A stretch of DNA of 64,000 bases. Source: Desulfofundulus kuznetsovii DSM 6115 (GTDB lineage: Bacteria > Bacillota > Desulfotomaculia > Desulfotomaculales > Desulfovirgulaceae). A program made the position numbers and the translations under genes. Below the pieces are notes generated by a model that was not told where the DNA came from, searched no databases, and saw nothing but the letters and a program-made list of their open reading frames with translations. Each line of letters starts with the position of its first letter. Within the stretch, counting starts at the first letter, position 1. Of the stretch, positions 54,549 through 64,000 are shown piece after piece. Where the stretch lies: positions 2,008,911 through 2,072,910 of the forward strand of contig NC_015573.1 of NCBI RefSeq assembly GCF_000214705.1. The letters are read 5' to 3'.

Positions 54549-55034
54549 CTACGCCTGCAGGTTTTTGCTTTTTTTGGAAAAGAAAAAGGCCAAAACCACA
54601 AACCCTGTCAGGTCCACCAGCACGTCAACCGCCCGACCGGTGCGGCCGGGCACAAAGGTCTGGTGCCACTCGTCCAGGGCGGCCACCAGAACCAGGATCA
54701 TCCCCGCCACAAACCAGCGTCTCTTATTCAGCCCTTGCAGGGCAGCGGCCAGCGACAGGCCCAGTGCCCCGTAAATTACCACATGCGCCCCTTTACGCAG
54801 CCAGAACTGGATGAAATCCGCCGGAGCGCGGCGGCTGTCCACCAGCTGGCCGCTGTAGGAAAAGCTTACCGGCGGCAGTTCCCGCACCCTTTCCACCAGG
54901 CCGGCGTGGCGCCGGATCTCCGGCCGCAGGTCCTGCTCGGCAAAGGGCTGGCTGGAAAAATAGGCGATGGCCAGCAGGCAGGTCCCAACCAGCAGCCACC
55001 GCCACCAACGCTTTCTATATGCCACCTGCAACAC
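54549..55034 (-). CDS. VanZ-family membrane protein, intact copy
   Basis: A 161-residue membrane protein with a helix at the N-terminus (WRWLLVGTCLLAIAYFSSQP), a middle region with APADFIQFWLRKGAHVVIYG, two more helices and the family motif DEWHQTFVPGRTGRAVDVLVD. VanZ proteins confer low-level teicoplanin tolerance in VanA operons; the biochemical role is unknown. It sits between galE and an Mrr-type gene. At least four partial copies occur in the window. Confidence 0.9.
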   Translation of the reverse strand: MLQVAYRKRWWRWLLVGTCLLAIAYFSSQPFAEQDLRPEIRRHAGLVERVRELPPVSFSYSGQLVDSRRAPADFIQFWLRKGAHVVIYGALGLSLAAALQGLNKRRWFVAGMILVLVAALDEWHQTFVPGRTGRAVDVLVDLTGFVVLAFFFSKKSKNLQA

Positions 55035-55686
55035 CTGACCTGCTATGAGTTTCTTTGATTAGTTTTTTGATTTGAGGCCGATCCCAAAGGGCAATGCCAA
55101 ATTTTCTAGCTTCTTCGATGGCCTGGTCGGTAAAATATTGATTGGTAATAACTATTCCGCCATCGCAACCATACCACTTCATACCCCTGTAAAGTTCTCC
55201 CAATGCTTTAACGCCCACCCTGTTTTTATTATCTCGCAATTTTTTTGCCTGCACAGCAATTTTACGCCCGTTTGAATCTATTATGATTATATCCGCACCA
55301 TGATCTTTCATCTCTGGCGTAAGAATGGTTTTATAACCCAGTCTTCGAAACATCAAATCCAAAAACCTTTCAAAATCCTGCCCGCGCATCTGGTCAATTA
55401 ACCTCATACAAGCCCTGGCGCTGTGCCAGGGGAAATCGCATTCACCAATCTTTCCAGAAGAACTTGATTTTGCAACACTGTTGCGTCTTGCAACACCATA
55501 TTTTCCTCTGTTCCTACTTTTACCATCAAATACTGTTGTTATCACCCTTCTAACAGAACGTAAAAAATGATATATGACCTCTCGTAAAACATAAGGTATT
55601 GAAGCTATGAAAATAGCTATCGCCGCAAAGATTAATGCCCACTTAATTATATCAACAGCATCAGAGAAGCTAACTAACGGTTTCAT
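55015..55686 (-). CDS. Membrane-anchored Mrr-type restriction endonuclease-like protein
   Basis: A 223-residue protein. One membrane helix near residues 13-35 (IIKWALIFAAIAIFIASIPY), a basic linker, then an Mrr_cat domain (~100-215): QMRGQDFERFLDLMFRRLGY, the PD-(D/E)XK core DHGADIIIIDSNGRKIAVQA followed by KK, and GIVITNQYFTDQAIEEARKF. It would cleave DNA (often modified DNA) at the membrane. It overlaps the intact vanZ start by 20 bases. Anchored Mrr-like proteins are candidates for defence against incoming DNA. Confidence 0.85.
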   Translation of the reverse strand: MKPLVSFSDAVDIIKWALIFAAIAIFIASIPYVLREVIYHFLRSVRRVITTVFDGKSRNRGKYGVARRNSVAKSSSSGKIGECDFPWHSARACMRLIDQMRGQDFERFLDLMFRRLGYKTILTPEMKDHGADIIIIDSNGRKIAVQAKKLRDNKNRVGVKALGELYRGMKWYGCDGGIVITNQYFTDQAIEEARKFGIALWDRPQIKKLIKETHSRSGVAGGI

Positions 55687-55773: not shown

Positions 55774-55872
55774 TCAGTCCATAATGTCGTCCCAGATGAA
55801 CCGGCACCATCCAGCGACTACCACCCTCCGGTGGCCTCGGGAAAGGTTATCTAGCACCGTCACCTTATATCC
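55774..55872 (-). pseudogene. N-terminal galE fragment (residues ~25-57)
   Basis: Reads GYKVTVLDNLSRGHRRVVVA and FIWDDIMD, the second strand and the Asp-containing loop of GalE that follow the NAD loop. This is part of the segment deleted from the copy at 53871. It is joined to a vanZ fragment after 20 bases. Confidence 0.8.
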
Positions 55873-55891
55873 CAACCAGATCACCCGCCCT

Positions 55892-55990
55892 CCGGCCGCA
55901 GGTCCTGCTCGGCAAATGGCTGGCCGGAAAAATAGGCGATGGCCAGCAGAGGCCCCAACCAGAAGCCACCGCCACCATTGTTTTTGAACT
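55892..55990 (-). pseudogene. N-terminal vanZ fragment, third copy
   Basis: Matches the first ~100 bases of vanZ with a 2-base deletion that breaks the frame after WRWLLVG-like WLLVGA. Located between the galE fragment and the murJ stop. Confidence 0.8.
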
Positions 55991-56065
55991 CCGGAAAACA
56001 CATGCAACACCTGGCCTGAACGTTTTCCCTGGAAAAACAATCAACACGTATCCCCAAAAGCTTTC

Positions 56066-57808: not shown

Positions 57809-58051
57809 TTATGAAAAAAGTTCCCTGACTAAGGCTTCCTTGGAGATTTTCAAATGATTGGCTACATCGGTTAAAATACCGTTAAGTGTCCCAACCTTCA
57901 ATGGATCATGTAGAGGTATGGTAATATGGTGTTCTCCTTGTATAGTCGTAGTAAGACGAAGATGACTTCCTGTTTGACGTGTTACGCGGTATCCATATCG
58001 GGCCAAAAGTTTTGCTAATTTCTCTCCGCTTACGTCTCTGGGCGCCCTCAC
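57809..58051 (-). CDS. hicA: HicA-type toxin
   Basis: An 80-residue double-stranded-RNA-binding-fold protein: VSGEKLAKLLARYGYRVTRQ then TGSHLRLT with the catalytic histidine, and HHITIPLHDPLKVGTLNGIL. HicA cleaves mRNA. GTG start overlaps the hicB-like stop by four bases. Here the antitoxin comes first, the reverse of the usual hicAB order but common in YcfA/HicA-YcfB pairs. Confidence 0.88.
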   Translation of the reverse strand: MRAPRDVSGEKLAKLLARYGYRVTRQTGSHLRLTTTIQGEHHITIPLHDPLKVGTLNGILTDVANHLKISKEALVRELFS

Positions 58052-58257
58052 ACTGCCATAACCTCATCTTTCACGATATGCAAGCGGATCATCCGGGGCA
58101 TATCTTTATCTTCAAAATGACAGCGTACCGCGTCCCGAACAGCAGCCCTTATTTCGTCCAAATTCTCGCCTTCCGTGAATATAGAGTGGCCGAGGGCTCG
58201 TGCTGTATAACCGCCTTCCGGGGCTTCCTCGACCAAAAAAATTATCTCTTGGGCCAA
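58048..58257 (-). CDS. HicB-like antitoxin (short)
   Basis: A 69-residue protein: IIFLVEEAPEGGYTARALGH, FTEGENLDEIRAAVRDAVRC and HFEDKDMPRMIRLHIVKDEV. It has the HicB-like fold but no C-terminal DNA-binding domain, as in the DUF1902/short HicB group. TTG start with AGGAGGGAG. First gene of a two-gene module with its own promoter. Confidence 0.82.
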   Translation of the reverse strand: MAQEIIFLVEEAPEGGYTARALGHSIFTEGENLDEIRAAVRDAVRCHFEDKDMPRMIRLHIVKDEVMAV

Positions 58258-58373: not shown

Positions 58374-58973
58374 TTATTCCTCCACCGGGAAAACCCATTG
58401 GAATTCCTTTACTCCCGCACAGATAAGAGTATTCTTCAATTTATCCGCAATCTCTTCCAATTCCGCCAGGCTCCTTGCCTCGCACCTGGCTACCAGTACC
58501 GGCTGGGTGTTAGAAGCCCGGACCAGGCCCCAGCCGGAAGGAAACTGGACGCGCGCGCCGTCTACATCAATTACCTCATAGCCTTCCCGACGAAAAGATT
58601 CGACAACAGACTTTACCACTTCCCCTTTGCGCTCTTCCTCGCAGGGGATACGGGTTTCAGGAGTAGAGTAAAGCCTGGGGATGTCGGCCAGAAGTCCCGA
58701 CAAGGACTGTTTTGACCGGCCCAGGATCCTCAGCAGACGGGCTGCGGCGTAGGGCGCGTCGTCAAAGCCGAAATACTCATCGGCGAAAAAGAAATGCCCG
58801 GACATCCATTTTCGGTTAACAAACATCTCGATTTCCCGCTTGAACCGCTCCCGGCTGAAGCACTCCGCATTGCGCCGCAGCACCTCCGGCCGGAAACAGC
58901 CTTCACACTGCAAAAATTGCCGCACCGCCGCTGGAAGCGCCGCCGGGGTCTGCTTCTGGAAAAAAACGCCCAC
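58374..58973 (-). pseudogene. Chimeric frame: glycosyltransferase end joined to phosphomannomutase end
   Basis: A 199-residue open frame. Residues ~5-55 (FLQCEGCFRPEVLRRNAECF, FKREIEMFVNRK) match the C-terminal end of the GT4 glycosyltransferase at 59688-60284. From WMSGHFFFADEYFGFDDAPY on it matches the last third of phosphomannomutase/phosphoglucomutase (with the LVRASNTQPVLVARCEA phosphate-binding loop). The join is in frame. It has neither active site complete. It is either a deletion scar between two polysaccharide genes or an odd fusion. Confidence 0.85.
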
Positions 58974-59687: not shown

Positions 59688-60284
59688 TTAACTTCGGACT
59701 CCCGTTAAAGACTCCCGCCACTTAGCCGCCACAAACGCTACGATCTCCCGCCGGAACCGCTCCCGTCCGAATCGCTCCGCATTGCGGCGCAGCACCTCCG
59801 GCCGGAAACGTCCTTCCCAGGCGAGAAACTGCTTCACCGCTGCTTCCAGCGCCTCCACGCTTTGCTCGTGGAAGAAAAGCCCGGTGGCTACCTCCCAGTT
59901 ATCCCCGGTTGCAGGGACTATCGTATCCTCCACCCCGCCTTTGCCGTAGGCGATCACCAGTGTACCGCAAGCTTGGGCCTCCACGGGCACAATGCCGAAA
60001 TCCTCCTCCGCAGCGAAGACCAGCGCCCGCGCCCGGAACATCAAGTCCGCCACAGTAGCATCGTCCTGATACCCAAGAAATTCTACGTTCTTCCCCGCCA
60101 GCCTCCGGCACTCCTCAAATTGTGGGCCGTCGCCTACGACTACAAGGGGCAGGCCCAACCTGGTAAGCGCCGCCACCACCAGGTCCGCCTTCTTGTACGG
60201 CACGAGCTCCGTGACGAAGAGGAAGAACTCCTCCTTTTTCCCCCCCACTCGAAACCGCTCCACGCCCGGCGGATAAATCACCAC
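59688..60284 (-). pseudogene. C-terminal half of a GT4 glycosyltransferase
   Basis: 198 residues: VIYPPGVERFRVGGKKEEFF, KADLVVAALTRLGLPLVVVG, AEEDFGIVPVEAQACGTLVI (ExFGIxxxE) and the C-terminal helix. The N-terminal donor/acceptor domain is missing, cut at the junction with the WYL gene. The in-frame start GTG GTG has no ribosome site. A second, independent copy of its last 55 residues is in the chimera at 58374. Confidence 0.8.
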
Positions 60285-60287
60285 CGC

Positions 60288-60557
60288 TTACAATTCAACG
60301 GGCCACCGTGGCACAAACGACTCGTCAAGCTTTCTTACTTCCAGGATGTTTCGCAAATAAAACTGCCGGGTTCCCTGCTTGCGTACATCGTAACAGTAAA
60401 ATCTCTCGTATGTACCTGGTGGGCGGAAGCTATATGGTTCAACAACCCGCTCCTCAACGGAACCGTCCTTCTCTCTGGCTCGCATCCATAACAACTTGCG
60501 CTCTCGTCCTGCCTGAATGATTGTTTCCAAAATACTCATACCGTTCATAACGTCCAC
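60288..60557 (-). CDS. Small stand-alone WYL-domain protein
   Basis: An 89-residue protein: ILETIIQAGRERKLLWMRAR, RVVEPYSFRPPGTYERFYCY and FYLRNILEVRKLDESFVPRW. This is the WYL core (I..AI.ekr-type helix, Y.P strand, terminal RTYxxxRI-like strand) without a helix-turn-helix. WYL domains bind ligands or nucleic acid ends and are common in defence islands. It is seven bases downstream of an OLD nuclease and probably co-expressed. Confidence 0.65.
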   Translation of the reverse strand: MDVMNGMSILETIIQAGRERKLLWMRAREKDGSVEERVVEPYSFRPPGTYERFYCYDVRKQGTRQFYLRNILEVRKLDESFVPRWPVEL

Positions 60558-60564
60558 CTCACAG

Positions 60565-62394
60565 TTAGTTAGCTAAGCTAAGGGCAGCAGCGAAGCAGTC
60601 GCAAATTTCCTTCGGTATCTCTTCCTTGGCGACCTCCTGGGCGAGTCTATAACCAATATCTTTTTTAGAAGCATCCTTTTTACTTTCTCTCTGCAATAAT
60701 ATTTTCAGTGCATCGGAAAACTTTTCACTCGAGCGAATCGCCTCAAAGTCGGATTCTACCCAAGGAGTTCCATCGTGTTTAGGCCAGAATTTTTCCGCCA
60801 CTTTAACCCATACCGCATTAGGAAAAGAATCCTCGAACTCCTTTATCCCCACATAATGCACCTGCTTCGAAAGGTCGAATCCGTCAGCCCTCAATTGCTC
60901 CTCAGTAAAAATGCGGCTTCTCGGCGAATTCTTAACATCGTTGTCCAGTAAAAATAAAACGTTTCTGCGCATCTTCTGTAAGTGCCTGGCGACCGTTCTT
61001 GCTCCGGTATCGCTCTCACCGTTAACGAGACAGATGCCTGCAGCTTGAAGCTGCATACCGTAAAGTTTGTAAAACAGCCCGGGCAGGGCGTTCATTTCCG
61101 TGTCACCCTCTACGACGAGGAAACACCTTTCGTGCAAGAGGATACTGTTCTTAAGACCCATCGTTTGGCTTATCACATACAAGAATTCTTGAACCTCCGG
61201 ATCGGTAACACCCGGCCCGGAGAGCCGTTCAACGTAAGTAGCTGAAGAGCTATCCAGGTTGAAGTGGTTAATTTGTTCCAGCGGCACCCTGTCAATAAGG
61301 TTAAGTGAATGTGTAGCCACAACTACCTGTACGTTGGGCATACCGGCAAAACTTTTTATAATCCCGAATATTTTCCGCTGCTGGTTATAATCCAGGTGGC
61401 TGTCCGGTTCGTCGAAGGCGATTAGTAATGGCTGGCTGTCCTTTGTCCGGTTTTGGAGCAACTGTCTGCCCCACTCCAGAGCAGCCAAGCTTAACCGCCG
61501 CCTAATACCGGCACCAGAACGCATTAGATCAACAACCTGACCTCTTTTTTTGATCTCTAACGAACAATGGCCCAGACCGGATTCAAAAGTGAAGCGCGGT
61601 CGGATCGAAACCGCTTCGATGTCGGGAACGTACTTTTGGATAATGGGCACAATCTTTTCGACCTCTGCATCCAAATCACTTTGGATCTCGCTTTGGATTT
61701 CACCAAGCCTGCCGGCATACTTCTCATTGCGCAGCAACTCAGGAAAAAAGGATTTCAAGTATTTATTAATTTCATTCTCCGGATCTAATGCTGACTCCGA
61801 GCTAAACAGTTCGATAAGAGGAAGAAACTGTCTTAAGGAGGCGGTTACCGGCACCCATCCCTCCACAAGATGCTGTTCGCTTCTCCACTGCCGAAGTTTT
61901 TCCAATCTATGTTCCTGATTTCTGCTATCCGAAATATCGATCCCAAGCTCGTTGCACAGGTCGATTACTTCTTGAGCTCTAACTCTAGGCTGGACAAGAA
62001 TCTGCTCAACACGGATATCCTCACAAACCATCTTTTTAACATCGAGCGATTGGCTGCCATCTTTGGCAATCACTTTTCTAATATACAGGCAATCGTCAGT
62101 TATTAGCTCCGCCGCATTGCTCTCTATCTCTTTAAGTTTCTTAATTTCTTCCGTATTTAACCTGAGCCGACCCTCAATAACGATTTCTCCGGCTTGTTCA
62201 CTGACGAACCGTGAAAAGTCTTGTTCTGAAAGCCTGTTCCTCTCACTAAAGAGAATATTTACAGCCTCTATAAAAGAAGATTTTCCGGTATCGTTGCCAC
62301 CCGTTAAAATCGTGATGTTATAGAGTGGAACCCAGTCTAGCTCGCGAAGGGAACGAAATCCTTTCACTCTAATAGCTTCTAAGATCATCTGCAA
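60565..62394 (-). CDS. OLD-family ATP-dependent nuclease (AAA + TOPRIM)
   Basis: A 609-residue protein of the overcoming-lysogenisation-defect family. ABC-like ATPase: VKGFRSLRELDWVPLYNITI, Walker A GGNDTGKSS (32-40), signature region MRSGAGIRRRLSLAALEWGR, Walker B LLIAFDEPDSHLDYNQQRKI and VVVATHSLNLIDR. TOPRIM nuclease domain: FLVVEGDTEMNALPGLFYK and VLFLLDNDVKN. GajA of the Gabija system belongs to this family, but no UvrD-like partner follows; a small WYL gene does. Candidate antiphage nuclease. Confidence 0.9.
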   Translation of the reverse strand: MQMILEAIRVKGFRSLRELDWVPLYNITILTGGNDTGKSSFIEAVNILFSERNRLSEQDFSRFVSEQAGEIVIEGRLRLNTEEIKKLKEIESNAAELITDDCLYIRKVIAKDGSQSLDVKKMVCEDIRVEQILVQPRVRAQEVIDLCNELGIDISDSRNQEHRLEKLRQWRSEQHLVEGWVPVTASLRQFLPLIELFSSESALDPENEINKYLKSFFPELLRNEKYAGRLGEIQSEIQSDLDAEVEKIVPIIQKYVPDIEAVSIRPRFTFESGLGHCSLEIKKRGQVVDLMRSGAGIRRRLSLAALEWGRQLLQNRTKDSQPLLIAFDEPDSHLDYNQQRKIFGIIKSFAGMPNVQVVVATHSLNLIDRVPLEQINHFNLDSSSATYVERLSGPGVTDPEVQEFLYVISQTMGLKNSILLHERCFLVVEGDTEMNALPGLFYKLYGMQLQAAGICLVNGESDTGARTVARHLQKMRRNVLFLLDNDVKNSPRSRIFTEEQLRADGFDLSKQVHYVGIKEFEDSFPNAVWVKVAEKFWPKHDGTPWVESDFEAIRSSEKFSDALKILLQRESKKDASKKDIGYRLAQEVAKEEIPKEICDCFAAALSLAN

Positions 62395-62413
62395 TCTTTC
62401 CTTTCAAAGCGTA

Positions 62414-63514
62414 CTACGTGGTTAGTTCCAGGAATAACCTCTCATACGCCTCTGTCACCATCTCCCAAGAGTAATTATTCCTTACCCTATCTACTGCAGC
62501 ATGGCGGTACTTGTCCAGTTCAGCGGGATGATCAACGGCCCACTGCAGCTTGGCTGCCAGATCTGCAACATCGTTTTTCCGGTAGATCAGACCTGCGTCG
62601 CCTACCACCTCCACATTTTCCGGTGTTCCGTTAGCTATAACCAAATTCCCAAAACCCATCGCTTCCACAAGGGCAGGATGTGTGCCACCTACCTCCGTGG
62701 CCTGAATGTAGCAATAGGCGTGAGACTGCAACTCCTTATACCCTTCGCCGAAAACGAAACCGGTCATCACTATCCGCGGGTCATCGCTGGCTAAGTGTTT
62801 AAGGTAAGCCTTATAGGAGGTAGCATACGGAGCATCTCCCACCACCGCCAGTTTTAGGTCCGTTTTCACTTGTTTAAAAGTCTGAATCACGATATGGGCG
62901 TTATTTTCCGGCTCCAGACGGCTGACATAGAGGATATAACGCTGGGGTTTGAGGCCAAAGCGTTCGAGAACCTGTGTGGTTTGAACCTTGGTGATATTGG
63001 CGCCGTAAGGTATCATCACCGATGCAGCCCCGTACTTTTCCCGATAGTACTCCTGAATCACCCGTGCATCGGCAACTATGGCATTAGGCAGTTTCGCCGC
63101 CAGCCACTCGCTTATGAGATACCAATTCTGCCCTAGCCGGTTCCACTTTTTGCGGAGCCGCTCGATCCCGTCCACATTGAGCGCCACCTTCACACCACGC
63201 AGGCGCGGGATGATGGTAAAGATGGCGTTGGCAGCGTTGCACATCAATATAACATCGTAGCGGCAAAAAAGAGAATGCAGTACCGACAACAGGGTATGCA
63301 CTGGCGTATCCAGGTACTTATGGCTAATGGTAGGCAGCTTAACCAGGCGGACGCCTATGTAAAATTGCTCCGGATATTTTACATTGTTCGTACGGCAGTA
63401 AACGGTAACCTCGTGACCGCGTTGCACCAAGCGCGGCGCAAGCTCCTCGGCGAACGTCTCGTAACCGCCGTAGCTTGCCGGGATACCCCGGATGCCCATG
63501 ATGGCAATTCTCAA
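62414..63514 (-). CDS. GT4-type glycosyltransferase (DUF1972 N-terminus)
   Basis: A 366-residue enzyme. LRIAIMGIRGIPASYGGYET and FAEELAPRLVQRGHEVTVYC are the DUF1972 start; LYVSRLEPENNAHIVIQTFK, VVGDAPYATSYKAYLKHL and ATEVGGTHPALVEAMGFGNL (ExGGTHPALxE) form the GT4 nucleotide-sugar domain. This group includes rhamnosyltransferases of surface polysaccharides. TTG start at 63514 behind AGGGGGTTACTGC. It is 20 bases upstream of the OLD gene and 28 bases downstream of another glycosyltransferase, so the OLD-WYL pair lies inside a polysaccharide operon. Confidence 0.88.
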   Translation of the reverse strand: MRIAIMGIRGIPASYGGYETFAEELAPRLVQRGHEVTVYCRTNNVKYPEQFYIGVRLVKLPTISHKYLDTPVHTLLSVLHSLFCRYDVILMCNAANAIFTIIPRLRGVKVALNVDGIERLRKKWNRLGQNWYLISEWLAAKLPNAIVADARVIQEYYREKYGAASVMIPYGANITKVQTTQVLERFGLKPQRYILYVSRLEPENNAHIVIQTFKQVKTDLKLAVVGDAPYATSYKAYLKHLASDDPRIVMTGFVFGEGYKELQSHAYCYIQATEVGGTHPALVEAMGFGNLVIANGTPENVEVVGDAGLIYRKNDVADLAAKLQWAVDHPAELDKYRHAAVDRVRNNYSWEMVTEAYERLFLELTT

Positions 63515-63542
63515 GTAGCAGTAACCCCCTTGCGTCATCTTA

Positions 63543-64000
63543 TTATGTTTGCCCAAGAACTCTTTGGTACGCCGTCAAAGTAATCTCTGCCGCCTTCTCC
63601 CATGTGAAATTCCTCAAAATATGCTCGCGCAGGTTGGGATTTGCCGGTTCATGCCAGGCCCGGTCGATGGCTTCCCTGATAGAGTCCACCGAAGCAGGAT
63701 CGCAGTAGTACGCGTAGTCGCCGAAGTATTCTCTAGTATCGCCTTTGTCTGTGATGACGAGGTTGCAACCCATCATACCGGCCTCCAGCGAGGAAAGCCC
63801 TGTTGTTTCCATCCAACTGGCAAGGACGTGCACTTTGGCTAAGTGATATAATTCCGGTAGCTCTTCGTGCGGCACTTTCCCCAGGAAAATGACGTTGGGC
63901 GGTGCCGACCGCCTTACCGCCTCGGCATACCGGCGGTGGTTGGGCGCGGGCTCGCCAACAAGTACCAGTCTGTAGGGACCACCCCTGACCGCTTCTACTA
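63543..64000 (-). CDS. GT4-type glycosyltransferase, C-terminal part (runs off the window)
   Basis: The frame is open to the window edge. It reads LVLVGEPAPNHRRYAEAV, VIFLGKVPHEELPELYHLAK and ASWMETTGLSSLEAGMMGC, the typical GT4 segment with the ETTGLSSLE donor-binding loop, then a normal C-terminus. N-terminal domain not in the window. Confidence 0.88.
   Translation of the reverse strand, partial: VEAVRGGPYRLVLVGEPAPNHRRYAEAVRRSAPPNVIFLGKVPHEELPELYHLAKVHVLASWMETTGLSSLEAGMMGCNLVITDKGDTREYFGDYAYYCDPASVDSIREAIDRAWHEPANPNLREHILRNFTWEKAAEITLTAYQRVLGQT

Follow-up and report, generated by a model that had tools for sequence, protein, structure and literature searches.

An OLD family nuclease gene paired with a short WYL gene in Desulfofundulus kuznetsovii, and the apparently interchangeable small genes beside related OLD nucleases

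OLD family nucleases are distributed among class 1, formed by single genes, class 2, accompanied by a helicase, and class 3, associated with retrons, and the one established defence role of class 1 is that of P2 Old (PMC10568477). At least eleven uncharacterised OLD clades have been recognised, one of them archaeal and named class 5 (PMC12796447); the words WYL and KTSC are absent from the main text of that paper. The present study describes an OLD gene followed by a short WYL gene in a stretch of 64,000 nt from Desulfofundulus kuznetsovii DSM 6115 (NC_015573.1, positions 2,008,911–2,072,910; the genome is one contig of 3,601,386 bases), hereafter the window, together with the small genes that adjoin related OLD genes. 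The pair is interpreted as a horizontally acquired two-gene nuclease unit, in which the WYL protein would be a dedicated accessory subunit and whose function is likely defence; we regard this interpretation as about evenly balanced between right and wrong.

Both genes are encoded on the reverse strand. The open reading frame (ORF) of the OLD gene extends over positions 60565–62394 from a TTG codon or 60565–62388 from an ATG codon, and that of the WYL gene over 60288–60557 from GTG (89 amino acids) or 60288–60548 from ATG (86 amino acids). Shine-Dalgarno-like sequences were recognised by eye on the same strand, 7 nt upstream of the OLD ATG (GGAAAG, 62396–62401) and 5 nt upstream of the WYL ATG (GAGGTGG, 60554–60560); they favour the ATG starts at 62388 and 60548, so that the two proteins most likely have 607 and 86 amino acids, respectively. 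The genes are separated by 7 bases as the ORFs read and by 16 bases with the ATG start of the WYL gene. A preliminary description of this DNA had reported an OLD ATPase/TOPRIM gene and a short WYL gene 7 bases apart, and the ORFs and Pfam domains confirm it.

The OLD protein matched the Pfam families AAA_15 (E 4.3e-25) and OLD-like_TOPRIM (3.6e-9; residues 421–484, positions 60937–61128, reverse strand). The ATPase half is N-terminal and of the ABC type, with Walker A at approximately residues 30–36, Walker B at D326-E327-P328-D329 and the H-loop at H360; G35, K36, D326-E327 and H360 are invariant in 24 of 24 aligned members, and we take these and the TOPRIM columns to be the motifs so named. 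In the C-terminal TOPRIM domain, matched by OLD-like_TOPRIM in all 24 members, the acidic residues E427, D482 and D484 are invariant. The protein of the window is an OLD family nuclease in both of its sequence features, an ABC-type ATPase and a TOPRIM domain with E and DxD. Its best sequence match in the PDB was the OLD of T. scotoductus (2.5e-18), and the best PADLOC model was Old (4.6e-32), with the best GajA model at 1.6e-29. The predicted structure (predicted local distance difference test, pLDDT, 83.6; predicted template modelling score 0.63) retrieved with Foldseek, in the top eight rows, T. scotoductus OLD, GajA and the retron-Eco8 OLD, the best being T. scotoductus OLD 6p74 (E 3.9e-17), with root-mean-square deviations (rmsd) of 18.6–25.6 to the whole OLD proteins. 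With a second aligner the highest rank went to ATPase heads of SMC and Rad50 (Z up to 22.6), and T. scotoductus OLD scored Z 19.3, its rmsd being 14.8 across 416 residues. Because of these large deviations and the first rank of SMC and Rad50, the model is trusted for the domains only and not for their arrangement.

As in the class 1 proteins T. scotoductus OLD and phage P2 Old, ABC ATPase and TOPRIM are joined in one chain and neither a helicase nor a reverse transcriptase gene adjoins. The locus differs from class 1 in the adjoining WYL gene, replaced by KTSC in relatives, and in the SAP-like insert of some relatives; it is not a single gene if, as we infer, the two proteins form a working partnership. 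A note from 2026 (PMC13261556) reportedly describes anti-phage effects of lone E. coli ybjD. The preliminary description had compared the pair with Gabija (GajA/GajB), which likewise combines an OLD-type ATPase/TOPRIM effector with a partner gene. This comparison stands at the level of the OLD fold only: no UvrD/PcrA/Rep-like helicase lies beside the OLD gene, whose neighbours are the WYL gene and glycosyltransferase genes, and membership in Gabija (class 2) was rejected. Membership in the retrons (class 3) was also rejected, as the same neighbouring genes include no reverse transcriptase; the non-coding RNA itself was not searched for.

SAP is a DNA-binding motif. Pfam SAP was matched in 6 of 24 OLD relatives at E up to 0.1 (best 1.1e-8). 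When segments were compared in isolation, 6 of 8 members gave a SAP match at an E value of 1 or less, L079 alone passing the Pfam cutoff (1.8e-7), and the segments of the window OLD and L031 gave none; the aligned region of the window OLD comprises approximately residues 120–170 (positions 61879–62031, reverse strand). In L079 (5298–5540) and its relatives, several of them actinobacterial, the SAP motif lies within the ATPase half of OLD.

The small protein exceeds the Pfam WYL cutoff (2.2e-5; 24.8 bits against 21.8). Its predicted model (pLDDT 90.8) consists of one helix and five strands of Sm-like type, a size into which helix-turn-helix (HTH) and WCX parts would not fit. In the structural comparison, the WYL domains of PafBC, BrxR, CapW and DriD occupied the first 12 rows (Z 9.9–12.2, rmsd 2.5–3.1 Å over 78–83 residues), two further DriD entries followed at Z 8.8–8.9, and Hfq and Sm proteins were lower (7.3–8.3); the WYL fold is thus well supported by the model. 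KTSC was not among the 50 matches listed in this comparison, which excludes nothing. All four WYL members retain the C-terminal signature PRWP(V/I)E, which reads PRWPVEL in the window, and since this ending is common to distant homologues the WYL gene itself looks complete.

The WYL accessory protein WYL1 of the type VI-D CRISPR-Cas13d system, which boosts an effector nuclease and binds single-stranded RNA (PMC6547453), is among the closest known parallels, but it has three domains and serves an RNase, whereas the window encodes the WYL domain alone, next to a nuclease of DNA type. PafBC is switched on by single-stranded DNA (ssDNA) through its WYL domain, with two arginines essential for ssDNA binding (PMC11804915), and PDB titles include entries of DriD and CapW with ssDNA. 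PafBC, DriD, BrxR and CapW share the WYL fold but are multi-domain regulators; the window protein is a WYL domain alone and lacks the two arginines essential in PafBC.

The preliminary description had asked whether OLD and short WYL genes are paired elsewhere, and they are. A Chloroflexota metagenome-assembled genome (MAG; locus L051) has the same order, OLD then WYL, with a WYL protein 54% identical and a 4-bp ATGA overlap. An Arthrobacter locus (L061) carries a WYL gene of 34% identity, convergent on OLD at approximately 340 bp. When 396 actinobacterial genomes were searched with the WYL profile only (up to 13 candidates scored per listed genome), two matches were obtained at 1e-10, that of L061 and one in genome G1117, and both lie beside OLD genes. 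The WYL gene of G1117 (L127) is located 12 bp upstream of an OLD gene of 630 residues (AAA_15 6.5e-40, OLD-like TOPRIM 1.3e-16) from another subfamily, approximately 21% identical to the window OLD over part of its length. As this locus was not chosen by its OLD, it gives independent support for the pairing, in a single case. Within the order of G1117 the profile matched 1 of 391 genomes, G1117 itself, again with up to 13 candidates scored per listed genome.

To describe the surroundings of related OLD genes, KTSC genes and short WYL genes of two types were sought in 90 loci chosen for a similar OLD; these comprise 10 of 36 matches on plasmids or phages and 80 of 112 in genomes. A WYL or KTSC gene was detected in 22 loci, and the two never occurred together. 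Short WYL genes were situated within 400 bp of OLD in 7 loci (L026, L033, L051, L061, L083, L086 and L102) and KTSC genes in 13 (L025, L029, L032, L036, L053, L057, L070, L077, L094, L096, L099, L104 and L106); more distant were a weak WYL match in L058 (644 bp) and a KTSC gene in L087 (1.6 kb). The near zone, representing 8.8% of the flank bases, contained 20 of the 22 genes, with about 2 expected (binomial p 1.5e-19), and 15 of 17 after removal of the five seed loci (p 1.7e-14); as the loci are related, these p values are too small. The near genes share the strand of OLD in all 13 cases for KTSC and in 5 of 7 for WYL; KTSC is upstream in 11 of the 13, 17–131 bp before the aligned OLD start. 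The Pfam check of KTSC was carried out on L032, L036, L106 and L094 only (4.9e-27 to 3.4e-6). A candidate OLD-KTSC fusion in L036 was rejected: the ORF of 787 residues contains KTSC and no ATPase, which indicates a shadow frame, KTSC being encoded by a gene of its own downstream. The pairing of OLD with a bare WYL domain that the preliminary description had named is real and recurrent, but WYL is one of several small partners, KTSC being commoner nearby. A shared function of OLD and its small partner is likely.

In PMC9503650 KTSC is named, from an unpublished observation by its authors, as a DNA-binding partner of HerA plus a nuclease in conflict systems; PMC7824862 calls it RNA-binding, and the PDB contains a HerA with a C-terminal KTSC. 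Those systems combine an ATPase, a nuclease and KTSC, as the KTSC-bearing loci studied here do, but the ATPase is HerA and not OLD, and WYL is not mentioned in the passage of PMC9503650 on them. Among the literature matches listed, no title or abstract opening names an OLD-WYL or OLD-KTSC pair; the matches covered few subscription papers and no bioRxiv, so that this is weak evidence of novelty.

A third small gene, of about 50–70 residues with a CxxC motif, lies downstream of OLD and is convergent on it in 78 of the 90 loci at a median distance of 51 bp (one at 1.9 kb). Two members were tested: no significant Pfam match was obtained, and they matched the phage family phrog_20506 of unknown function (best 4.2e-16). 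The 12 loci without this gene comprise three with a near KTSC, six with a near WYL, L058 with its weak and more distant WYL match, and two (L031 and L043) lacking both. WYL or KTSC was present within 400 bp in 9 of the 12 loci lacking the CxxC-type gene and in 11 of the 78 possessing it (Fisher p 3.5e-5, without phylogenetic correction). One small gene may take the place of another, the kinship of the loci being an alternative reason for the pattern. In the OLD tree, built with the window and 87 of the 90 loci (L057, L069 and L101 had no clean frame and were excluded), the window grouped with L031 (neither partner), L032 (KTSC) and L051 (WYL), the deep order being unsure owing to long branches, and among the partner-bearing rows each partner label must have changed at least four times to fit the well-supported branches. 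These OLD nucleases close to class 1 constitute a clade with apparently interchangeable small partners.

The second type of short WYL gene was also followed outside these loci. A plasmid search with the Deinococcus WYL protein yielded 16 records, of which 11 were read, that of the query among them (H48 and H51–H54 were not). The profiles of the two types matched each other at E 0.004 with a probability of only 8%, and a kinship beyond the common fold family is unproven from these sequences. Second-type proteins gave no Pfam match in L033 and L086 and stayed below the WYL cutoff in L083, L102 and L026; L026 is a seed of the second-type profile, and the other four were counted as WYL because this profile finds them at 2.1e-14 or better. 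Other contexts of short WYL sequences were seen. In an Aliarcobacter plasmid (L128, 4001–4294) a second-type gene adjoins SbcD- and SbcC-like genes, another ATPase-nuclease context. Two AbiEii-family toxin proteins (L151:1056–2504, 482 residues; L152:993–2417, 474 residues; two of four records with AbiEii-type matches to short WYL were read) have an internal segment, at about residues 316–391, that resembles short WYL; among the literature matches listed, no title concerns such a segment in AbiEii.

Several data weigh against a dedicated OLD-WYL unit. In 70 of the 90 loci no WYL or KTSC gene lies within 400 bp, many of the 90 are Streptomyces relatives and not independent, and the tree shows no clear clustering of the partner labels (values as low in 92 and 95 of 500 shuffles). 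The WYL gene is on the strand opposite to OLD in L033 and L061. An OLD gene lies within 4 kb in only 2 of the 11 second-type WYL loci read, L026, which was picked by OLD, and L132; the other nine indicate that the wider type is not specific to OLD. Six of 13 plasmid records with an OLD of the L127 type were read: five have no nearby WYL or KTSC, and in the sixth, L132, a second-type WYL gene is divergent at a few hundred bases. In the window WYL protein the W-Y-L tripeptide is not kept, with E48-R49-F50 at its place in our own reading of the alignment with PafC, and the counterparts of PafC R201 and R204 are Tyr64 and Asn67. Across four WYL members only L051 keeps one arginine at these positions (R64). 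On the other hand, R34, R49 and R61 are invariant in the four; R34 belongs to an R-x-V-x-P motif and R61 aligns with PafC R198, while the correspondence to PafB R181/R208 is our own alignment reading. A basic nucleic-acid groove is possible from these residues; ssDNA sensing of the PafBC type by the window protein is not supported by them.

The small genes could be passengers, the OLD proteins of the clade acting alone as in class 1 and WYL and KTSC being frequently carried by the same mobile or defence islands. The loci without either gene, the second-type WYL loci away from OLD and the L127-type plasmid loci point in this direction. However, 20 of the 22 genes are concentrated within 400 bp of OLD and not scattered over the flanks, KTSC and WYL never coincide in the 90 loci, and the single new locus of the WYL-only search had an OLD neighbour. 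We consider this alternative on the whole unlikely.

The strand and order of the small genes also bear on the possibility that OLD is toxic and that WYL or KTSC is a neutraliser or modulator that silences it until infection, in the manner of a toxin-antitoxin pair. Tight linkage, with overlapping reading frames in L051, would suit such a function, as would the WYL-like segment inside AbiEii-family toxins of type IV toxin-antitoxin loci. That segment, however, belongs to the toxin itself, and the WYL model is the barrel alone with no DNA-binding HTH part. Moreover, the order of the genes is not constant, and in L033 and L061 the small gene converges on OLD, unlike in most antitoxins. A neutraliser appears improbable on these data.

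The pair is flanked by glycosyltransferase genes. Upstream lies an intact family 4 glycosyltransferase gene (62414–63556, reverse strand; 380 amino acids, full length by Pfam domains). Directly after the WYL stop, in the WYL frame, is a glycosyltransferase remnant (59688–60287, reverse strand) that by Pfam and alignment retains the C-terminal half only: it corresponds to residues 182–378 of the homologue of about 380 residues in L112, at 80% identity, the similarity starting at the codon right after the WYL stop and the DNA similarity to L112 at 60282. Full-length homologues are present in L112 (same family, approximately 380 residues from the likely start) and L113 (same order, 382 residues), and their N-terminal half is ordinary glycosyltransferase sequence, not WYL. 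No match to the N-terminal half was found in the window or across the genome (the genome search had no positive control). The full-length relatives and the missing N-terminal half indicate that the truncation is real and that the WYL gene does not represent the masked beginning of a glycosyltransferase. The placement of the pair between an intact and a half-cut glycosyltransferase, as first described, is borne out, and the truncation fits the insertion of the pair that had been suggested from it. Direct or inverted repeats of 7 or more bases common to both edges were not found in the two stretches of 55–60 bases compared. The comparison with relatives proposed in the preliminary description gave five congeners without WYL or a close OLD, besides the full-length glycosyltransferases of L112 and L113; no exact empty site was seen among the relatives examined.

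The pair has a patchy distribution. A strong OLD match was present in one of six genomes of the genus, that of the window, the five congeners having none or weak partial ones; the best (2.3e-6, 21% identity over residues 3–382; L003, G005 C50:9142–10311) sits in a frame of 608 residues and may be another OLD-like protein. The WYL gene was present in one of nine genomes of the family, again that of the window, and the five congeners had no WYL match. Of the 113 genomes of the class, one had an OLD match with an E value of 1e-30 or below, and the WYL profile matched 13, all listed matches except that of the window being in frames of 230–415 residues. With the WYL protein as query, 11 of 398 genomes of the phylum were matched, and the frames other than that of the window, of 145–374 residues, were read as larger WYL proteins. 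The nearest OLD relatives, 39–40% identical over nearly the full length, belong to an archaeal MAG (L031) and two Chloroflexota MAGs (L032 and L051); others occur in Streptomyces plasmids and many actinobacteria, mostly at 29–34% identity. The OLD profile matched 1 of 400 Chloroflexota genomes, with only three candidates scored in listed genomes. Single-protein OLD scans of genome contigs and viral contigs found no relative, nor did profile scans of viral contigs with OLD and with WYL; the window WYL against plasmids and phages and the L051 WYL against plasmids gave no match. The G+C content is 0.46 and 0.48 in the OLD and WYL genes, 0.54 in the window and 0.62 in the shortened glycosyltransferase. 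This lower content and the patchy distribution were counted in favour of horizontal acquisition. One contig labelled Vibrio cholerae (L044) has an OLD and a small gene that group with those of actinobacteria, perhaps by contamination or a wrong label.

The surroundings of the pair also contain fragments: besides the glycosyltransferase remnant, a mosaic ORF (58374–58973) joins a glycosyltransferase tail, 54% like the L112 protein, to a phosphomannomutase C-terminal domain. These fragmentary neighbours would agree with a decaying island that no longer has a function and was left behind by recombination in a hypervariable polysaccharide locus. Yet both frames of the pair are intact, the catalytic residues are conserved, ribosome-binding sites were recognised and the C-terminal WYL signature is maintained, and we consider decay very unlikely. 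Further genes were noted in the same part of the window: an Mrr-type restriction endonuclease gene (55015–55686; Mrr_cat 1.7e-28) about 5 kb from the pair, at 57809–58257 a HicA toxin gene (1.2e-11) with an adjoining ORF that is HicB-like by eye and without a Pfam match at 0.01, and a partial second copy (55774–56040) of a VanZ-like gene (54549–55034), recognised by eye from the translations.

Under the interpretation of an acquired two-gene unit, the OLD-WYL pair would have entered a polysaccharide locus, where it took the place of the 5' half of a glycosyltransferase gene. OLD would be the effector, predicted from its conserved ATPase and TOPRIM residues to be an ATP-driven, metal-dependent DNA nuclease, and WYL, a bare Sm-like barrel, may bind a nucleic-acid ligand or dock on OLD, perhaps in a physical complex, and thereby recruit or gate the nuclease. 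In related systems a KTSC-domain protein would fill the role of WYL. Defence against phages or plasmids is a plausible function of such a unit. More tentatively, and clearly less probably than not, these loci could represent a separate OLD defence class, in which the nuclease, with a SAP-like insert in many relatives, is commanded by an interchangeable small sensor (WYL, KTSC or CxxC-type) that decides which nucleic-acid sign of invasion triggers the enzyme; in that case a single effector chassis would have been retuned on several occasions through the exchange of a gene of 50–100 codons.

A clade whose small neighbours recur and can be exchanged would point to a way in which class 1-like nucleases are controlled. 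It would also broaden the range of WYL domains, from the regulation of promoters to a function as bare accessory subunits, and would provide the little-studied KTSC domain with a second nuclease context.

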